Positions 1,793 to 20,697 of a stretch of DNA of 20,988 nt are shown in pieces. Source of the DNA: a virus. Position numbers and translations under genes: made by a program. The notes below the pieces were generated by a model that was not told the DNA's origin, ran no database searches, and saw only the letters and a list, made by a program, of their open reading frames with translations. Location of the stretch: IMG/VR virus record IMGVR_UViG_3300032291_000495, positions 1 to 20,988 of that record; one strand, given 5' to 3'. Each line of letters opens with the position of its first letter. Positions within the stretch are counted from its first letter, which is position 1.

Positions 1793-3196
1793 ATGGCACT
1801 ATTAGACGAAATCCGAAAGGCTCAAGTCTTAAACCTATTAGGTGAAAGATTACAGGGCTTATTGGATGTTCCTACAAGTGCATCTAGATTTATGGTAAAT
1901 CCTACAGCAGTTCTTGATGCTGTATCTGGTAAGACAGCAATGCCAAAAGAAAAAGGTTTTGCTGAAGCTGTTGCTCAACTTCCACAAAGAGAAAATTTAA
2001 CTGTATTAGACCCTGCAAATAGGGCTTATATGGAAGGTTATAGTCAAGGTGAGCCATTTGGTTATGCTTCTATGGCTTTGCCTTTTGCTGGTGCTGGAGC
2101 AACAAAACTAAGTGACAAGTTAGTGCAGACTATCACTAAGAATCCTAGTGCTACTGCAATGAATGTTATTGACTATGCAAGCGCTTACAATCCATCTCAG
2201 ATTTTCATTGGTCAAGGAGCAAAGTCTTGGAATCCAGATATGGCATTTAAAGCTGCCAAAATGGAAAAAGCAGGTAAGTCTCCACAAGAAATATGGAAAG
2301 AAACTGGAACAGTAAAAGCTCCTGATGGTAATTGGAGACAAGAGATTAGTGATGCTGGCTCAGAAATAAATAAATTGCCACTACAAGATTCTTGGGAAAA
2401 CTTCTCAAGAAAAGCTGAAATTGCTAAATATGGCAGTAGAGGTGCGGATGTAGGCAAAATGTCTAATAAAGAATTTAAAGAGTTTCAAAAATTTAGAGAT
2501 GATTTGCAACAAGAATTTAATACTTTGACAAAAAGAGAAGCTCCACTATCTGATGTTTTGACTCATAAACAGTTATATGAAGCATACCCAGATATTGCAA
2601 AACTAAACACTATGCAAGATAAAAGCATTGGTTTAGAGGGAGAGTTAAGCCCTTATGGTATTAAGTATGGTGATGTTTCAAACAAAGATAACCTTAGAGG
2701 TTTATTTTTGCATGAAGGTCAGCATGGTATTCAATTAAATGAGGGATGGGCTTTAGGTGGTTCTCCTAAGAATTATACTCAACAGGCTGAAGCAGAATTA
2801 GCAAAAAAAGCATTGTTAATGAGAAGTGAGATTGATGCAATGCCAAGCTCAATACCTTTTGATGAAAGAGCTAAAACAGTTAAAGAGTTGTTTGAAAAGC
2901 TAGACCAAACTCCAATTGATAAAAAGACAATGGATTTAGTAAAAGACTACACAGACAACCCAAGTTCACAGTTAGAAGAAATAGCTAACTTTTATGGCTT
3001 AGACAGAAGAAGCTCTGCTATGTCACCAGATGATGTTTACAAAAGATTGTTTGGAGAAGCTGAAGCTAGGCTAACTCAAAGCAGAAGGGATTTAACTCCA
3101 GAACAAAGGTTAGAGTATTTCCCATACAATCAAGGTCAATATGGATTAGATGTTCCATTAAATGAAGTAATTGTAAGAGGTTTGCTAGGAAAGTAA
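1793..3196 (+). CDS. HEGQH metallopeptidase-like phage protein
   Basis: This 467-aa protein starts after a good AGGAAA site. Residues 307-311 are HEGQH in the context LFLHEGQHGIQ, an HExxH zinc-binding motif. About 110 residues later comes GEAEAR (421-426), then RRDLTPEQR. This pair (LHE-QH-IQ, then GE-EAR and R-LT-eqR) is what I recall from large polyvalent-protein-associated domains of phages (LPD23-like), predicted metallopeptidase-like folds. The Glu of the second motif could be the third zinc ligand. The N-terminal 130 residues have a hydrophobic Gly/Ala stretch (YASMALPFAGAGA) and the middle is charged and helical. It could process a virion or scaffold protein, or travel in the virion and act on host proteins on entry. 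Neither role is shown by the sequence. It sits just upstream of the terminases. Confidence 0.65.
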   Translation: MALLDEIRKAQVLNLLGERLQGLLDVPTSASRFMVNPTAVLDAVSGKTAMPKEKGFAEAVAQLPQRENLTVLDPANRAYMEGYSQGEPFGYASMALPFAGAGATKLSDKLVQTITKNPSATAMNVIDYASAYNPSQIFIGQGAKSWNPDMAFKAAKMEKAGKSPQEIWKETGTVKAPDGNWRQEISDAGSEINKLPLQDSWENFSRKAEIAKYGSRGADVGKMSNKEFKEFQKFRDDLQQEFNTLTKREAPLSDVLTHKQLYEAYPDIAKLNTMQDKSIGLEGELSPYGIKYGDVSNKDNLRGLFLHEGQHGIQLNEGWALGGSPKNYTQQAEAELAKKALLMRSEIDAMPSSIPFDERAKTVKELFEKLDQTPIDKKTMDLVKDYTDNPSSQLEEIANFYGLDRRSSAMSPDDVYKRLFGEAEARLTQSRRDLTPEQRLEYFPYNQGQYGLDVPLNEVIVRGLLGK

Positions 3197-9160: not shown

Positions 9161-9484
9161 TTGTCTAAATTAGGCAAACTCAAACAAAATCAGAATGTTT
9201 ACGCAGATGGTGAAGGCGGTATTATTATTGAGACTAAGGTCGATTTAAGCCAAATCATTGAGATAAACAAACAAAAATTTAATGAACGAAGCGAAAAGAC
9301 TAATTGGGGTTCTGATGTATTAGACCCTCGAAATCATATCGCTACTATCCCTGACATCATCATTGATGAATTGAACAAAAAAGGTGTAATGCGTGGCTAT
9401 GCAGTCATAGACAAGGAAGCCTTTAGACGATTCTTAAATGACCCAGATAATAAGGTCTGGAGAACAAGGGGTGGCAATGTATAA
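9161..9484 (+). CDS. conserved phage protein of unknown function, TTG start
   Basis: This 107-aa protein starts at TTG 9161 with a strong GGAGAG site at 9151-9156 that decides the start. The sequence includes KLKQNQNVYADGEGGIIIETK, a SDVLDPRNHIATIPDIIIDE helix/strand region, and KEAFRRFLNDPDNKVWRTRGG near the end. It recurs in related phages right after the coat gene as far as I recall, without a known role. It could be a minor head or head-completion protein, which is inference from position. Its end overlaps the glycosyltransferase start. Confidence 0.75.
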   Translation: MSKLGKLKQNQNVYADGEGGIIIETKVDLSQIIEINKQKFNERSEKTNWGSDVLDPRNHIATIPDIIIDELNKKGVMRGYAVIDKEAFRRFLNDPDNKVWRTRGGNV

Positions 9485-10106
9485 AGTAGGAATCTGTATC
9501 CCTGCAAGGGGAACAATGGAAGTAGGAACTGCCTTTGATTTGGCAGCTTTGGTGAACTATACAAACAAGCATAGCAAGATAGAGATAAATCTTTACACTT
9601 CTATGGGAACTTTGATATTTGACCAAAGAAACAATATGGTTCAATCAGCGTTAGACGATAACTGCACACATATTCTGTTTATTGATGCAGATATGAGGTT
9701 TCCTAAGAACTCTCTAATGAAGCTGATAAATCATAATAAGGCGATTGTAGGTGTTAATGCTACTACTCGTAGTGAGCCAGTAAAGCCTACAGCAAAGACA
9801 TTAGAGGTATTTGATGACCATGTAGTGTGGCATCCAGTATTCTCAAAAGGCAAGACAGGCATTGAGATTGTTGATGGCATAGGCTGTGGAGTCATGCTGA
9901 TTGATGCTTCTGTATTTAAAGAATTAGAGAAACCTTGGTTTTACTTTGAGCAATTGCCACAAGGTAAGATTCTAGGTGAGGACATCTACTTCTGTATTAA
10001 GGCTTCAGATATTGGCTTTAAGACTTATGTAGACCACGATTTATCACAAGAAATTAAGCATATTGGTTCGTATCAATATGGATGGCATAACATAGAAATG
10101 GATTAG
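9477..10106 (+). CDS. GT-A-type glycosyltransferase
   Basis: This 209-aa protein is read from ATG 9477, preceded by AGGGGTGG; an in-frame ATG at 9438 would lie deep in the previous gene and lacks a site. It has VGICIPARGTMEVG at the start, where the nucleotide-sugar pocket would be. A DxD metal motif lies in LFIDADMRF (D70, D72), a central GVNATTR block follows, and GEDIYFC (E168-D169) matches the acidic pair before the catalytic helix. This order fits a compact GT-A fold transferase, probably with a nucleotide-sugar donor and divalent metal. It lies between coat and adaptor genes, so it may decorate a virion protein or host surface sugar. No membrane segment is visible. Donor and acceptor cannot be told. 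Confidence 0.8.
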   Translation: MYKVGICIPARGTMEVGTAFDLAALVNYTNKHSKIEINLYTSMGTLIFDQRNNMVQSALDDNCTHILFIDADMRFPKNSLMKLINHNKAIVGVNATTRSEPVKPTAKTLEVFDDHVVWHPVFSKGKTGIEIVDGIGCGVMLIDASVFKELEKPWFYFEQLPQGKILGEDIYFCIKASDIGFKTYVDHDLSQEIKHIGSYQYGWHNIEMD

Positions 10107-10108
10107 AC

Positions 10109-10729
10109 ATGGCTTTTACCAACTACTCGGCTTTAAAGACCACAGTAGCTAATTACCTAGGTCGGACAGATTTAACTACTCAGATTCCTGACTTCATTAC
10201 ATTGGCTGAAACTCGTCTAGCAAGAGAGTTGCGTACAAGACAGATGCTAAAGTCAGCGACATCTTCAATGACTAGCGGTGATGCTAAAGTGGCATTACCT
10301 ACAGACTTTCTTGAAGTAAGAGATTTATATATCCGAGGAAACCCAAGGATGCCTGTTACTTATCTAGCTCCTAGTGCCTTCACAAGAGATGCTAGGGCAG
10401 ATGAGTCTGGCTTACCTGTTTACTATACAGTATTGGCTTCAGAGTTCTTATTTGCGCCTATTCCAGATGGCACAAAGACACTAGAGATTCTTTACTATGC
10501 AAAACCTGTTGTATTGTCAGATAGCAATACAAGCAATGTATTCTTGGCTAATTACCCTGATGCTCTACTTTATGGCGCATTATTAGAAGCAGAACCTTAT
10601 CTCATCAATGATGCTAGGGTTCAGTTATGGGTAAGTTTGTACGATAGAGCTATTAACTCTATTTCTAGCGCAGATGAAGGCTCAGAATATAGCGGTGTCC
10701 CATTACAAATGAAAGTTACTTCAAGATAA
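10109..10729 (+). CDS. head-tail adaptor (gp4 / SU10 adaptor-like)
   Basis: This 206-aa protein begins with FTNYSALKTTVANYLGRTDL then IPDFITLAETRLARELRTRQM, a helical bundle pattern seen in podophage adaptors that bind below the portal. It continues with LPTDFLEVRDLYI, a beta stretch ending in ILYYAKPVVLS, then a helical block ANYPDALLYGALLEAEPYL. This is the layout of the phage adaptor family typified by SU10 and many aquatic phages. It would link the portal to the tail hub encoded at 12075. It starts 2 nt after the glycosyltransferase stop. Confidence 0.82.
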   Translation: MAFTNYSALKTTVANYLGRTDLTTQIPDFITLAETRLARELRTRQMLKSATSSMTSGDAKVALPTDFLEVRDLYIRGNPRMPVTYLAPSAFTRDARADESGLPVYYTVLASEFLFAPIPDGTKTLEILYYAKPVVLSDSNTSNVFLANYPDALLYGALLEAEPYLINDARVQLWVSLYDRAINSISSADEGSEYSGVPLQMKVTSR

Positions 10730-10738
10730 GGAAATATC

Positions 10739-11125
10739 ATGGCTGAAATGTCAAACTACTTGGAAAATGCAGTTATCAATGCAGTTCTCCGTAATACAAG
10801 CTACACAAGCCCTACAACAGTTTATGTAGGTCTTTTTACATCTGACCCTACTGATGCTGGTTCAGGCACAGAGGTTTCAGGTGGCTCTTATGCTCGTACT
10901 GCTGTTACTTTTGGCGCACCTTCTAATGGTGTATCAACTAACAGCGCTGCGGTAGAGTTTCCACAAGCTACAGATAGCTGGGGTACTGTTACACACATTG
11001 GTATTCATGATGCTTCTAGCTCAGGTAACTTGCTATTCCATACTGCTTTAGATACTTCTAAGGCAATTGCTACAGGAGACATCTTCAAGATTGCTTCTGG
11101 TAACTTGAGTGTTACATTGGCATAA
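10739..11125 (+). CDS. Gp80-like beta-sandwich tail protein
   Basis: This 128-aa protein has the run NYLENAVINAVLRNTSY, TVYVGLFTSDPTD, GSYARTAVTF, SWGTVTHIGIHDASSSGNLLF and a beta C-terminus. The phrases N-LE-aild--l, YVgLfTsdPTd-Gsg-Ev-gg-YaR--v-f and W-tvthiGi-Da are those of a common small phage protein family (Gp80-like), usually placed among tail or fibre proteins. The role is probably structural. Its stop and the next start overlap (TAATG). Confidence 0.75.
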   Translation: MAEMSNYLENAVINAVLRNTSYTSPTTVYVGLFTSDPTDAGSGTEVSGGSYARTAVTFGAPSNGVSTNSAAVEFPQATDSWGTVTHIGIHDASSSGNLLFHTALDTSKAIATGDIFKIASGNLSVTLA

Positions 11126-12093
11126 TGCCACTAACTCTTGAGCAGTTAGACCAGTTTGGAAGCCTAGATGATTTAGAATATTCTCTAGACCTAGACTGGT
11201 ATGATGACCGAGTATCTGGCACTTGGACTTTAGAAGCCCTTGATGCCATTGGTTCTATCGACAGCCTGAACCTGTCTTTAGATAGCGAGCTATGGAATGG
11301 CTCTGTAACTGTTTATTTTGTAAATCCTGCAAGTGTTTCTTCTAGTGCAACAGTTTCAGCCAATGCGTTAAGAGAAAGATTTGTAACTGGCTCAGTTAGC
11401 TCTGAGGCTAATGTATCTGCAAGCCCTACAAGAATTATGTTCTTTAGTGGCTCAATTACTGGTAATGCTCAGACAGAAGCCAATGCTTATGCAGTATATG
11501 GTGGCTCAGGCTCGATTACAGGCTCTGCAACAGTATCAAGTAGTGCATTTAGGGTAAGGACTAGTGCTGGCTCAGTAAACTCAACAGCAAGCGTTTTAGC
11601 AAGCGCATACAGGATTTGCTCAGGAGCAGGTTCTGTTACTGGTTCTGCTACTGTAACAGCCAATGGCGCAAGAGTATTAAGTGCAGTAGGAGCTATTTCA
11701 GGTTCAGCAACAGTTTCTGCTGACTCAATTAGGGTAAGAACAGGAAGTGGAGCAGTCAATGGATTATCGACAGTTACAGCATTGGGTGGTGTTGAATACT
11801 CAGGCAATGCAGAGATTAGAGGCATTTCGACAGTATCAGTTACAGCAAATGCAGTATTTAGCTCATCAGGCTCAATTAGCAACACAGCTACTATTCGGTG
11901 CTTAGGTAATATCCTAGGAGACAATTGGAGCTTAGACACAATAGGTTCAGAGTCTTGGACACCAATAACACCTGAGAATCCTAACTGGAACGATAATTCA
12001 GTAGGTAGCGAATCTTGGACAGAAATCACAGCAGGTTCAGAAAACTGGACTGCTTCAACAAGTGGAAATGAACAATGGCAAATCAGCGCATAA
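11125..12093 (+). CDS. repeat-rich beta tail protein
   Basis: This 322-aa protein has three repeat types. Residues 4-25 and 35-57 are two copies of a TLE-LD--GS-D-L--SLD---W module. Residues 70-261 hold about nine to ten repeats of 20 residues of the form GSVTGSATVSA-A-RV. Residues 274-318 hold five decapeptides, each with a Trp (278, 288, 298, 308, 318), mostly GSE-WT. The Ser/Thr/Ala/Gly/Val content suggests a beta-solenoid or fibrous shaft. No enzyme motif is visible. Flanked by the Gp80-like protein and the hub, it is probably a tail or surface fibre component. The last Trp codon overlaps the ATG of the next gene. Confidence 0.75.
   Translation: MPLTLEQLDQFGSLDDLEYSLDLDWYDDRVSGTWTLEALDAIGSIDSLNLSLDSELWNGSVTVYFVNPASVSSSATVSANALRERFVTGSVSSEANVSASPTRIMFFSGSITGNAQTEANAYAVYGGSGSITGSATVSSSAFRVRTSAGSVNSTASVLASAYRICSGAGSVTGSATVTANGARVLSAVGAISGSATVSADSIRVRTGSGAVNGLSTVTALGGVEYSGNAEIRGISTVSVTANAVFSSSGSISNTATIRCLGNILGDNWSLDTIGSESWTPITPENPNWNDNSVGSESWTEITAGSENWTASTSGNEQWQISA
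11332..11907 (+). repeat. about 60-bp tandem coding repeats
   Basis: Roughly nine to ten in-frame units of about 60 bp encode 20-residue repeats (for example GSITGSATVSSSAFRVRTSA and GSVTGSATVTANGARVLSAV). Units have diverged and some are a residue or two longer or shorter. They are coding repeats, not spacer-repeat arrays. Confidence 0.8.
11944..12078 (+). repeat. 30-bp tandem repeats encoding Trp decapeptides
   Basis: Five successive 30-bp units place Trp at residues 278, 288, 298, 308 and 318 of the 11125 product. Three units read GSESWT or GSENWT. The unit period is exact, though the DNA has diverged. Confidence 0.8.
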
Positions 12094-13523
12094 CTTTTGG
12101 TGAGTGGTTACCAGACCAACCATCTGTAACTGGTGCTTTAATGAAGGCAGATAATGTCTACTCTAGAGCTATCGGCTATGGTGGTATTCCGTCTGCTGTG
12201 GACTATTCTCAATCTGCTTCAGAGCCATTAAACAATGTGGTAGCTGGTAAAAACCCTGATGGTTCTACAACAGTATTTGCAGGAAGCCAGACAAACCTAT
12301 ACAAATTAGACTCTGCTGATATGTCTTTAGATGATGTATCAGGAGCTACTTATGCTACTCCTGTAGACCAAAGATGGAGATTTACTCAGTTTGGCAACAG
12401 AATTATTGCTGCTAATGGATATAACAAATTACAAGGTTGGTTACTAGGAACTTCTACTGCATGGGCTGATTTGTCTGCTGATGCACCTACAGCTCGTTAT
12501 GTCACAGTAGTTCGTGACTTTGTAGTATCAGGGCATATTGGCACAGCTTACCCATTCAGAGTTAAATGGTCTGCATTGAATGATGAGACAAGCTGGACAG
12601 ATTCAGCGACAACTCAATCAGATTACCAAGAGATTCCTGATGGTGGCTCTATTGTTGGTGTAACAGGTGGTGAATTTGGCTTAATCTTGATGGACAGGTC
12701 AATCTATCGCATGACTTATGTCGGTAGCCCACTAGTATTCCAGTTTGACAATATCTCTAGAAACCTAGGCTGTTATGAGGCTAACTCAATTATTCAGTAT
12801 CAAGGATTAACATTCTTCTTGGCTGATGATGGATTCTATGCCTGTGATGGTCAAAATGTCGTATCAATTGGTGGCGAAAAGATAGACAGATACTTCTTTA
12901 CAGATGTAGACGAGGAATATTTGCACAATATGTCTGCTGCTGTAGACCCTATTAAAAACCTTGTGATTTGGGCTTACCCATCTAAAGGTCAGGGTGGCAA
13001 TGTTAATAAGTTATTGATTTATAACTTCCAAACTAAAAAGTGGTCTAGCGGAACTACTGATGTAGACAGAGTGGCTTCATCTTCTAGCCCATCTACTACT
13101 TTAGAGGGTTTGGATGCTATTTCTAGCTCTATTGATGCTTTAGGAACTAGCTTTGACTCTCGTATCTGGTTAGGTGGAAAGTTGTTGTTTGCAGGGGTAA
13201 GAAATAGTAAAATTGTGACATTTACAGGCGCTAATTCTACTGCTACAATTCAGACAGGAGAACTGTCTCTAGAAAATCGTAAGTCTGCAATTACTTTGGT
13301 TCAGCCTACAGTAGATAATGGCTCATGTGATGTTGCAGTATTTTCAAGAGATTTGCTTACTACCCAAGTTATATTTGGCTCATCAACTTCAGCAGATTCA
13401 GAGAATAGAGTGTCAGTAAGAAGCATGGGAAGATACCATAGACTACAGTTTAGCCCAACAGGAGCTAACTGGGATTCTATTATCGGTGCTGATGTTGAAA
13501 TTGTTCCTATGGGTGGCAGATAA
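12075..13523 (+). CDS. tail hub / stabilisation protein, gp10-like beta-propeller
   Basis: This 482-aa protein has repeated propeller-blade-like strands: TTVFAGSQTNLYKLD, RWRFTQFGNRIIAANGYNKL, ARYVTVVRDFVVSGHIG, FGLILMDRSIYRMTYVG, LTFFLADDGFYACDGQNV, NLVIWAYPSK and LLIYNFQTKKW. This pattern and the length resemble the P22 gp10-type packaged-DNA stabilisation or tail-nozzle proteins (472 residues in P22), which sit below the adaptor and carry fibres. Residues 342-365 (TLEGLDAI to DSRIW) form an insert also found twice in the preceding protein. ATG 12075 lies within the preceding gene (19-nt overlap). Confidence 0.7.
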   Translation: MANQRITFGEWLPDQPSVTGALMKADNVYSRAIGYGGIPSAVDYSQSASEPLNNVVAGKNPDGSTTVFAGSQTNLYKLDSADMSLDDVSGATYATPVDQRWRFTQFGNRIIAANGYNKLQGWLLGTSTAWADLSADAPTARYVTVVRDFVVSGHIGTAYPFRVKWSALNDETSWTDSATTQSDYQEIPDGGSIVGVTGGEFGLILMDRSIYRMTYVGSPLVFQFDNISRNLGCYEANSIIQYQGLTFFLADDGFYACDGQNVVSIGGEKIDRYFFTDVDEEYLHNMSAAVDPIKNLVIWAYPSKGQGGNVNKLLIYNFQTKKWSSGTTDVDRVASSSSPSTTLEGLDAISSSIDALGTSFDSRIWLGGKLLFAGVRNSKIVTFTGANSTATIQTGELSLENRKSAITLVQPTVDNGSCDVAVFSRDLLTTQVIFGSSTSADSENRVSVRSMGRYHRLQFSPTGANWDSIIGADVEIVPMGGR

Positions 13524-14320
13524 TGTTTAGAGTCTTACCACCTTTCGGTGGAGACCAGCGAGCTGTCGCTGAAATAGTCAATGGCATTATGAATGGCAAG
13601 ACCAATAATACTGGTTCTGTCACATTGGCTACTGGGGGTGCAACAAGCACGACTATTACAGATGCTCGTATTGGTGCAGATTCTGTGGTGATTATTGTTC
13701 CTACTGATGATATATCTTCTACTGCTTACTATCCTTATTTGGCGGTGCAAGATACTACAAACCAAGTAGCTCCCAATACAACTGGGGTGAATATTATCAC
13801 CTTTAATACTACTGACTATGCTTTAGGAGCTAGTCTAGTAGATAACACAAAACTAACTGCTGGTTATGCAGGTTTATACAATATTCAGTTTTCAATTCAG
13901 TTTGTAAATGCTACAAATAGCCATGAGACTGTGGATATTTGGTTTAGAAAAAATGGTACTGATATAGCAGCTTCTAATAGTAAATTTGGTATGTCTCAAA
14001 GAAAAAGCTCTGGTGATAATAGTCATGACATAGGTGCAATGAACTTTTTTGTTGCTTTGCAAAAAGATGATTATATTCAATTGGCATGGAGACCAAGTAG
14101 CACAAGCACATCTATAGAATATTTTGCAGCAGGTACAAGCCCTACAAGACCAGCAACACCATCAGTAATAGCAACCATGAGCTACTTATCTAGCAATGGT
14201 TACACAAGCAATATATTTACAAACCCTTATATTAGTTCAGTAACTAATGGAAGCGCAGTAATTTCACATCCTGCTAACTCAATTGCAGGTAAAACTTTTG
14301 ATTATGTAGTCATAGGATAA
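13523..14320 (+). CDS. tail tip protein with C1q/TNF-like domain
   Basis: This 265-aa protein starts on the stop of the hub gene (TAATG). The N-terminal segment RAVAEIVNGIMNGKTNNTGS then VTLA is a recurrent attachment-type start in short-tailed phages. Residues about 114-222 (AGLYNIQFSIQF, VDIWFRKNGTDI, NFFVALQKDDYIQLAWRP, PSVIATMSYL) follow the strand pattern of a C1q/TNF-like jelly roll, a trimeric fold used in receptor binding. A short beta tail follows. It is probably a small fibre or tip that binds the host surface. The domain call is from pattern only. Confidence 0.7.
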   Translation: MFRVLPPFGGDQRAVAEIVNGIMNGKTNNTGSVTLATGGATSTTITDARIGADSVVIIVPTDDISSTAYYPYLAVQDTTNQVAPNTTGVNIITFNTTDYALGASLVDNTKLTAGYAGLYNIQFSIQFVNATNSHETVDIWFRKNGTDIAASNSKFGMSQRKSSGDNSHDIGAMNFFVALQKDDYIQLAWRPSSTSTSIEYFAAGTSPTRPATPSVIATMSYLSSNGYTSNIFTNPYISSVTNGSAVISHPANSIAGKTFDYVVIG

Positions 14321-19986: not shown

Positions 19987-20697
19987 ATGGCAAAAACCAA
20001 AATCTCGGAATTTGATGTAAACCCAGACAACAATACTGACATCAATAACATCAATATTGCTGAAGGCTGTGCGCCTAGCGGTATCAATAATGCTATTCGT
20101 CAGCTCATGTCTGACTTGAAAGATTGGCAAGCTGGTACAAGTGGCGATACTTTGCCTATTACTGCTGGTGGCACAGGCGCTACTTCAGCTTCTGCTGCTA
20201 GAACTGCTCTTGGTCTAGCCATTGGCACAGATGTTCAGGCTTATGATGCTGATTTAACAACTCTAGGAGCTGGTGGTTCATCTGCTCGTTCATTCCTTGG
20301 TTTAGCTATCGGAACTGATGTTCAAGCCTATGATGCTGACACAGCTAAGACTGATGTAGCCCAGACATTTACAGCAGCACAAAGAGGAACTGTATCAGCT
20401 CTTACTGATGGCTCTAGCATTACTCCTGACTTTGCAGTAGCTAACAACTTCTCTGTTACTTTAGGTGGTAATAGAACTTTGGCTAACCCTACAAATATTA
20501 CAGCAGGTCAGTCAGGTGTGATTGTGATTACTCAAGATGGCACAGGCTCTCGCACACTAGCTTATGGTTCTTACTTTAAGTTTCCTAGCGGAACAGCACC
20601 AACATTGACTACAACTGCAAGTGCAGTAGATGTCTTGGTATATTATGTAGAAAGTTCAACTAGAATTACTGCTCGCCTTGTAGCAGATGTTAAGTAA
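19987..20697 (+). CDS. tail fibre protein
   Basis: This 236-aa protein opens with [20 protein letters not shown] and [18 protein letters not shown], a start typical of fibre proteins attached to short tails. It continues with [20 protein letters not shown], a standard fibre motif, then two copies of [15 protein letters not shown] (from residues 75 and 104). The C-terminal beta domain ([20 protein letters not shown] to [13 protein letters not shown]) is a known fibre-end type. It likely contacts the host surface. No chaperone domain or active site is visible. An AAGGA follows the stop and serves the next gene. Confidence 0.82.
20209..20343 (+). repeat. 87-bp spaced fibre repeat
   Basis: Units starting at 20209 and 20296 encode the same 15 residues ([15 protein letters not shown]), but their DNA differs at many third positions. 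The repeat is therefore old and kept at protein level. Confidence 0.75.

Follow-up and report, generated by a model that had tools for sequence, protein, structure and literature searches.

A Leu/Asp motif at the proposed fibre-dock position of a phage tail nozzle, with related copies in the neighbouring repeat-rich tail protein

The DNA analysed here (the window) is the whole of IMG/VR virus record IMGVR_UViG_3300032291_000495, 20,988 bases long, and is probably a fragment of the genome of a short-tailed phage. Its morphogenesis genes are SU10-like, as judged from domain matches to SU10_portal, SU10_MCP and SU10_adaptor, and the tail genes and motif copies considered below lie on the plus strand. 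The gene of the tail adaptor (10109..10729; SU10_adaptor, PF24175) is followed by that of a Gp80-like protein (10739..11125; PF23140, a family named for fibre I of podophage GP4), then by the open reading frame of a repeat-rich tail protein of 322 amino acids ("rep", 11125..12093) and by the gene of the tail nozzle protein, of 482 amino acids (12075..13523), in such a way that the 3' end of the repeat-protein gene overlaps the start of the nozzle gene. Directly 3' of the nozzle, a protein is encoded (13523..14320) that has a conserved N-terminal anchor, A (FRxLPPFGGDxRxVAE...GKTNNTG), and a tail-fibre-like protein with a different N-terminal anchor, B, is encoded at 19987..20697 and is a candidate ligand of the docks described below. 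A 35,792-base IMG/VR contig (L373) encodes a repeat-protein head identical to that of the window over 62 residues, and is probably a longer relative of the window virus.

The 482-residue protein, called a hub in the sequence-only reading that preceded this work, is a SU10-type tail nozzle. It matches phrog_3287 over residues 2-482 (E 4.1e-78), as SU10 gp17 also does (E 8.4e-116), and both a propeller and platform fold and the context of a SU10-like head-tail module were found. The best solved-structure matches of its AF2 model (42 sequences, pLDDT 86.7) were the nozzles of Pa223, VP1 and SU10, the closest being that of Pa223 (PDB 9nwi, Z 32.6). Comparison with the SU10 nozzle gave Z values of 28.5-29.8, and with its virion chains of 29.0-29.8, with 464-472 of the 482 residues aligned at an rmsd of 2.9-3.1 (VIA-align). 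The tail of podophage GP4 (PDB 8jov), whose name is borne by the Gp80/fibre I family of the window's neighbouring gene, has a related nozzle fold (Z 23.3).

Three copies of a short TLE-LD-W motif had been reported in these two neighbouring tail genes; all of them were found in place, and the case for them proved stronger than first put. In the repeat protein, copy 1 comprises T4-L23 plus W25 (11134..11199), with the pairs L8-D9, L14-D15 and L21-D22 ahead of the tryptophan, and copy 2 comprises T35-S54 plus W57 (11227..11295), with the pairs L39-D40, I45-D46 and L52-D53. The nozzle copy, which we propose to be a fibre-dock loop, comprises T342-D361 plus W365 (13098..13169), with the pairs L346-D347, I353-D354 and F360-D361. 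Copy 2 and the nozzle copy align as TLExLDxI-(S)xSIDxLxxSxDSxxW. Against the whole nozzle copy 2 scored 66, and against the rest of the repeat protein copy 1 scored 57, values reached by none of 3000 shuffles in either case. Copy 1 scored only 30 against the nozzle alone, which was reached by 220 of 3000 shuffles, so that copy 1 is linked to the nozzle through copy 2 and through the family profile. A profile of nozzle segments scored the two repeat-protein copies of the window at 34.3 and 23.8 bits (domain E 3.7e-9 and 6.9e-6), whereas shuffled repeat proteins (n=2000) gave at most 6.1 bits with the same profile. As judged from these sequence comparisons, the repeat-protein copies are homologous to the dock loop of the nozzle.

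The distribution of the motif was studied in loci obtained from viral-contig scans seeded with relatives (at most 80 among the matches listed per scan) and in eight chosen phage records, so that all counts describe relatives, many of them close, and not phages at large. L081, which is the window itself, was left out of all sets. The motif profile was built from 67 distinct nozzle segments, with the nozzle of the window included and both PaP3 (L085) and the repeat proteins excluded. A search of the kind proposed in the sequence-only reading gave many matches, and the nozzle-only profile recovered the gene just upstream of the nozzle: repeat proteins were matched with domain E values between 3e-11 and about 0.2, any further rows beginning at E 5, and in the 347 records no ORF was found at E 0.05 besides the nozzles and the ORF just upstream of them. 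The motif was detected in 335 of the 347 nozzle ORFs, the other 12 being 11 ORFs truncated before the site and PaP3. The suggestion that the segment could be an optional insert, absent from some homologues, was rejected, as it is present in 335 of the 336 ORFs that reach the site and PaP3 has a Trp version of it. The two outcomes that had been named as speaking against the motif, a profile without further matches and nozzles simply without the segment, were thus not obtained, PaP3 and SU10 having the tryptophan version.

With the tandem head as seed, a scan yielded 80 of 275 loci among the matches listed, 72 of them under new ids, several of which lie in contigs already in the set under other ids. 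In each of these 72 loci, one ORF other than the nozzle carries the motif; it ends in the Trp tail in 69 and is cut off by the locus end in 3, and the nozzle is the next gene after the LD-headed ORF in all 67 loci that contain one. A tblastn search with motif-like letters matched nozzles of relatives and chance mycobacteriophage rows, and in the 11.3-kb region of PaP3 no second ORF with the motif was found. No description of a second protein with this loop was found among the titles and abstract openings listed from an open-licence library.

The nozzle copy had been placed between propeller-like strands; it sits instead where the propeller exits into the C-terminal part, after the last propeller strands and ahead of the C-terminal part of the platform. 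The 335 nozzles have three hydrophobic-Asp pairs seven columns apart, counted in profile columns without insertions. The first pair is L/M/I/V followed by Asp in 329 of them, and all 335 have a second pair of a hydrophobic residue (L/I, a few V or M) followed by D/E, a third pair of L/F followed by Asp, and a final aromatic residue (W/Y/F); in 42 the first two pairs stand one column closer. Residues 341-370 of the window's nozzle have block-mean pLDDT values of 47-51, as compared with 86.7 for the whole model, and segments 340-343 and 354-368 are the only ones of at least three residues below 50. As the segment is conserved, yet has no confident fold alone, it looks like an interaction loop. 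The nozzle of MW202481 (L349, MW202481.1 27950-29560) carries an insert of about 55 residues in the loop, between pairs 1 and 2.

The position of the loop is that of a known fibre dock. According to the SU10 structural report (PMC9509320), the nozzle holds the short tail fibre with a dock loop, located at the edge of propeller blade 1, in which W839, W847 and W857 form a quasi-threefold star and each packs on Ile24 of one fibre chain, in such a way that three loop positions are matched to a trimeric fibre. Trp was confirmed at positions 839, 847 and 857 of the SU10 protein sequence, and in a joint alignment these residues share one block with the window motif; this block follows the WS of the last propeller strands and precedes the next strands. 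PaP3 has a loop of the Trp type in the same place, with three Trp at 7-residue spacing, and its fibre orf12, next door to the nozzle, has a gp16-type anchor (phrog_6465). Since the motif shares its alignment block with the SU10 and PaP3 tryptophans, the window loop is most simply read as a Leu/Asp version of the fibre dock. It has in common with the SU10 gp17 loop the family, the fold, the position in the chain and the presence of three pseudo-equivalent hydrophobic positions in one loop. By contrast, the SU10 tryptophans are spaced 8 and 10 residues apart, while here Leu/Ile/Phe-Asp pairs stand about 7 apart; the fibre anchor of SU10 is of the gp16 type (Y-I-Y), whereas other candidate anchors are present here; and the occurrence of the loop in a second protein is a feature of the window lineage, unlike SU10. 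Because the three hydrophobic positions are occupied by Leu/Met, Leu/Ile and Leu/Phe instead of Trp, the loop would be a variant that may work like the dock, and not a Trp-star dock. The earlier proposal of a docking module is therefore supported for the nozzle copy, which lies at the published SU10 fibre-dock site in a protein of the same family.

The repeat protein consists of the LD head, a shaft of beta-type repeats (each about 20 residues long, by eye) and a C-terminal run of six tryptophans at 10-residue spacing (W268, W278, W288, W298, W308 and W318; 11926..12078), of which the first four are invariant in 31 sequences and the last two are present in at least 90%. At E 0.1 it had no match in Pfam or PHROG, its AF2 model has a pLDDT of 39.4, and a profile of the head gave matches at chance level against solved structures. 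Among 159 repeat proteins with a complete N-terminus, 39 have two recognisable copies, 74 have one and 46 have none; 39 of the latter have a PLDRLTG-like head, which on sequence we read as a degenerate motif copy (examples gave E 0.027-1.5), and the remaining 7 carry other heads. Such other heads on the shaft-plus-Trp-tail protein include YVVYGYWEY, YGLSAFSQSPYSAL/FGICSFSQAPFSSL, TISAFTFAEA and VSSRLISVPAQNS, and come from L060, L063, L065, L083, L332, L324 and L349 (thus including MW202481). As the same shaft and Trp tail are found with several different N-terminal heads, head exchange is indicated. The claim that the module is transferable is hence partly borne out, by the copy number of two, one or none and by the replacement of heads, but in the records read its range was limited to these two adjacent genes. 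The terminal Trp run was also followed in 187 upstream ORFs, where at 9-11 residue spacing 5 have three tryptophans, 79 have four and 98 have six; an irregular four-Trp tail with one odd gap accounts for 5 of the 187. We judged it unlikely that the run represents further triple docks, since four is common and five was not seen in this set.

The candidate fibres were compared through their anchors, in 30 records hand-picked for length (24 from the window and IMG/VR and 6 phage records; some further long contigs, among them L199, L206 and L285, left out). Anchor A usually heads the gene right after the nozzle, and anchor B heads the tail-fibre-like protein. Anchor B was detected exactly once in each of the 28 records with an LD dock (with a partial match, 44/59 positions, in G004) and in neither of the two with a Trp dock, SU10 and PaP3; anchor A was present in 26 of the 28, with a second weak place in one record, and in neither of the two. 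By tblastn, anchor B was found in 6 of 50,697 phage records, which are the six best nozzle matches. HTVC106P-type records have anchor B and keep the loop without anchor A, which makes anchor B the better fibre candidate. Among relatives, the co-occurrence of anchor B in 28 of 28 records may be simple co-inheritance, and the distances between nozzle docks and between anchors B were not associated once nozzle divergence was accounted for (partial r -0.14, equalled or exceeded in 1730 of 2000 permutations, 23 records). This set was reduced from 28 by leaving out L027, with a weak and different anchor, and four records whose nozzle is more than 90% identical to that of another record, the window included. 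The profiles of anchors A and B bear no resemblance to the anchor of SU10 gp16, both gave chance-level rows against solved structures, and phrog_6465 was absent among 11 different proteins of the window, which is part of a genome. In HTVC106P-type loci, a conserved ORF of 49 residues between the nozzle and fibre genes takes the place of the anchor A protein (L084 7461-7610).

The copies of the motif in the two proteins are more alike within a genome than between genomes. The identity between the nozzle copy and the last repeat-protein copy was 0.516 within and 0.450 between genomes in 25 clusters (80% nozzle identity), a difference reached by 0 of 5000 permutations, and 0.508 and 0.446 in 14 clusters (12 of 5000); with 7 clusters the excess was not clear (429 of 5000). 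It was weaker for the first repeat-protein copy (5, 112 and 1693 of 5000 for 25, 14 and 7 clusters). In a smaller sample, the excess was reached by 3 of 5000 permutations with 15 clusters, and with 11 clusters by 190 (identity) and 664 (BLOSUM) of 5000. In a partial Mantel test, nozzle dock and repeat-protein dock were correlated given the nozzle body (r 0.17, 5 of 1000, 39 clusters). This likeness would be accounted for by a ligand in common, by direct contact or by repeated transfer in the past. Recent gene conversion between the neighbouring copies, without functional coupling, would fit the adjacency of the genes and the slightly higher codon identity at shared residues within genomes (0.347 versus 0.314). 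It was rejected on codon use, and we give it the lowest probability of all the explanations considered: at shared residues with more than one possible codon, codons agree within a genome at only 479 of 1380, about as often as between genomes, which argues that the likeness does not come from recent DNA exchange.

Direct contact was the idea of the sequence-only reading, in which the LD heads of the repeat protein would pair with the nozzle loops and fix the repeat protein on the nozzle. This would agree with the lineage-matched similarity and with the adjacency in 67 of 67 loci, but joining of the two proteins by the module is not supported. The ORF upstream of the nozzle (n=347) is a repeat protein in 182 cases, an adaptor (a sequence-pattern class) in 127 and another protein in 18, and was not found in 20; among the 18 are L049, L056, L059 and L064, repeat proteins whose terminal part has fewer than four Trp. 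The nozzle motif is kept where the repeat gene is not adjacent (as in HTVC106P and L067), which suggests that the function of the nozzle loop is independent of the repeat protein. Conversely, motif-free repeat proteins with other heads adjoin motif-bearing nozzles of the same type in L060, L063, L065 and L083. The last of these is Methylophilales phage Venkman, a cultured relative that has a nozzle loop of the LD type and a fibre gene with anchor B; the head of its adjoining repeat protein, gp51, is a different one and lacks the motif. A tandem head would moreover require two nozzle loops each, and in SU10 this loop carries a fibre (PMC9509320), so that such pairing seems improbable. We consider somewhat less probable that both loops bind a third, non-fibre partner in the neck, such as Gp80, the adaptor or the anchor A protein, with their likeness as a consequence. 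The Gp80-like protein and the adaptor are encoded next to both, and a weak association between nozzle dock and anchor A given the nozzle body (r 0.11, 31 of 1000, 58 clusters) leaves room for partners other than B; however, the association of the repeat-protein dock with anchor A goes the opposite way (r -0.27, reached by 1000 of 1000), the loop persists in the HTVC106P-type records that are devoid of anchor A, and the fibre held at this place in SU10 points elsewhere. Lower again we place convergence with the nozzle loop, in which case the motif would be a short heptad-like or capping element for trimerisation of the repeat protein. The seven-residue spacing of the hydrophobic residues and the short, low-confidence helices in the AF2 models of both proteins are in line with it, but the heptad is broken by a six-residue spacing of pairs 1 and 2 in the window's repeat-protein copies and in 42 of the 335 nozzles, and the similarity extends over the whole motif, with TLE and the terminal aromatic residue, far beyond chance.

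We favour, with somewhat better than an even chance for the explanation as a whole, that the nozzle copy is a fibre dock of Leu/Asp type and that the copies in the upstream repeat protein are extra docks. It is supported by the homology of the copies, the location of the loop, its triplicate pattern, its conservation together with low predicted confidence, the restriction of the motif to two genes in the records read and the lineage-matched similarity. Binding of a fibre by the nozzle loop we infer from homology to SU10, and we infer likewise which fibre would bind and that the repeat-protein copies would share its ligand. In such a mechanism, each nozzle subunit (six per tail, by homology) would let the loop hang from the junction of propeller and platform as a flexible strand with three pseudo-repeats, which would fold only on binding of a trimeric tail fibre, one pseudo-repeat per fibre chain, as the tryptophans of SU10 do. 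In the window lineage Leu/Ile/Phe and Asp would replace Trp, and the fibre would attach through another type of N-terminal anchor, for which anchor B (ORF 19987) is the most likely candidate. The repeat protein would probably be an accessory tail appendage offering extra sites for the same fibre; that its copies are extra fibre docks has about even odds. A more specific form, which we regard as possible and rather less likely than that, is a fibre multiplier: the N-terminus of the appendage would have one or two complete three-lobed docks, so that a single fibre gene would be mounted in two tiers, on the nozzle and on the appendage, with a head exchangeable between lineages and a constant shaft and Trp tail.

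How receptor-binding fibres are held and multiplied in short-tailed phages is known from few structures. With a dock signature that occurs in a second protein and in hundreds of phage records, most of them uncultured, the types of dock and fibre anchor could be read from sequence; it also offers a concrete test of whether a duplicated docking loop sets the number of fibres.

Two other proteins of the window were also observed. A glycosyltransferase-like protein is encoded at 9438-10106, amid the virion module and between the capsid and adaptor genes, with a match to Pfam Anp1 just above the cut-off (E 9e-7) and to phrog_1574 (function unknown). At 1793-3196, a protein of 467 amino acids with the polyvalent-protein domain LPD23 (E 3e-10) is encoded, and it contains an LHEGQHG stretch which we take to be suggestive of a metal site.
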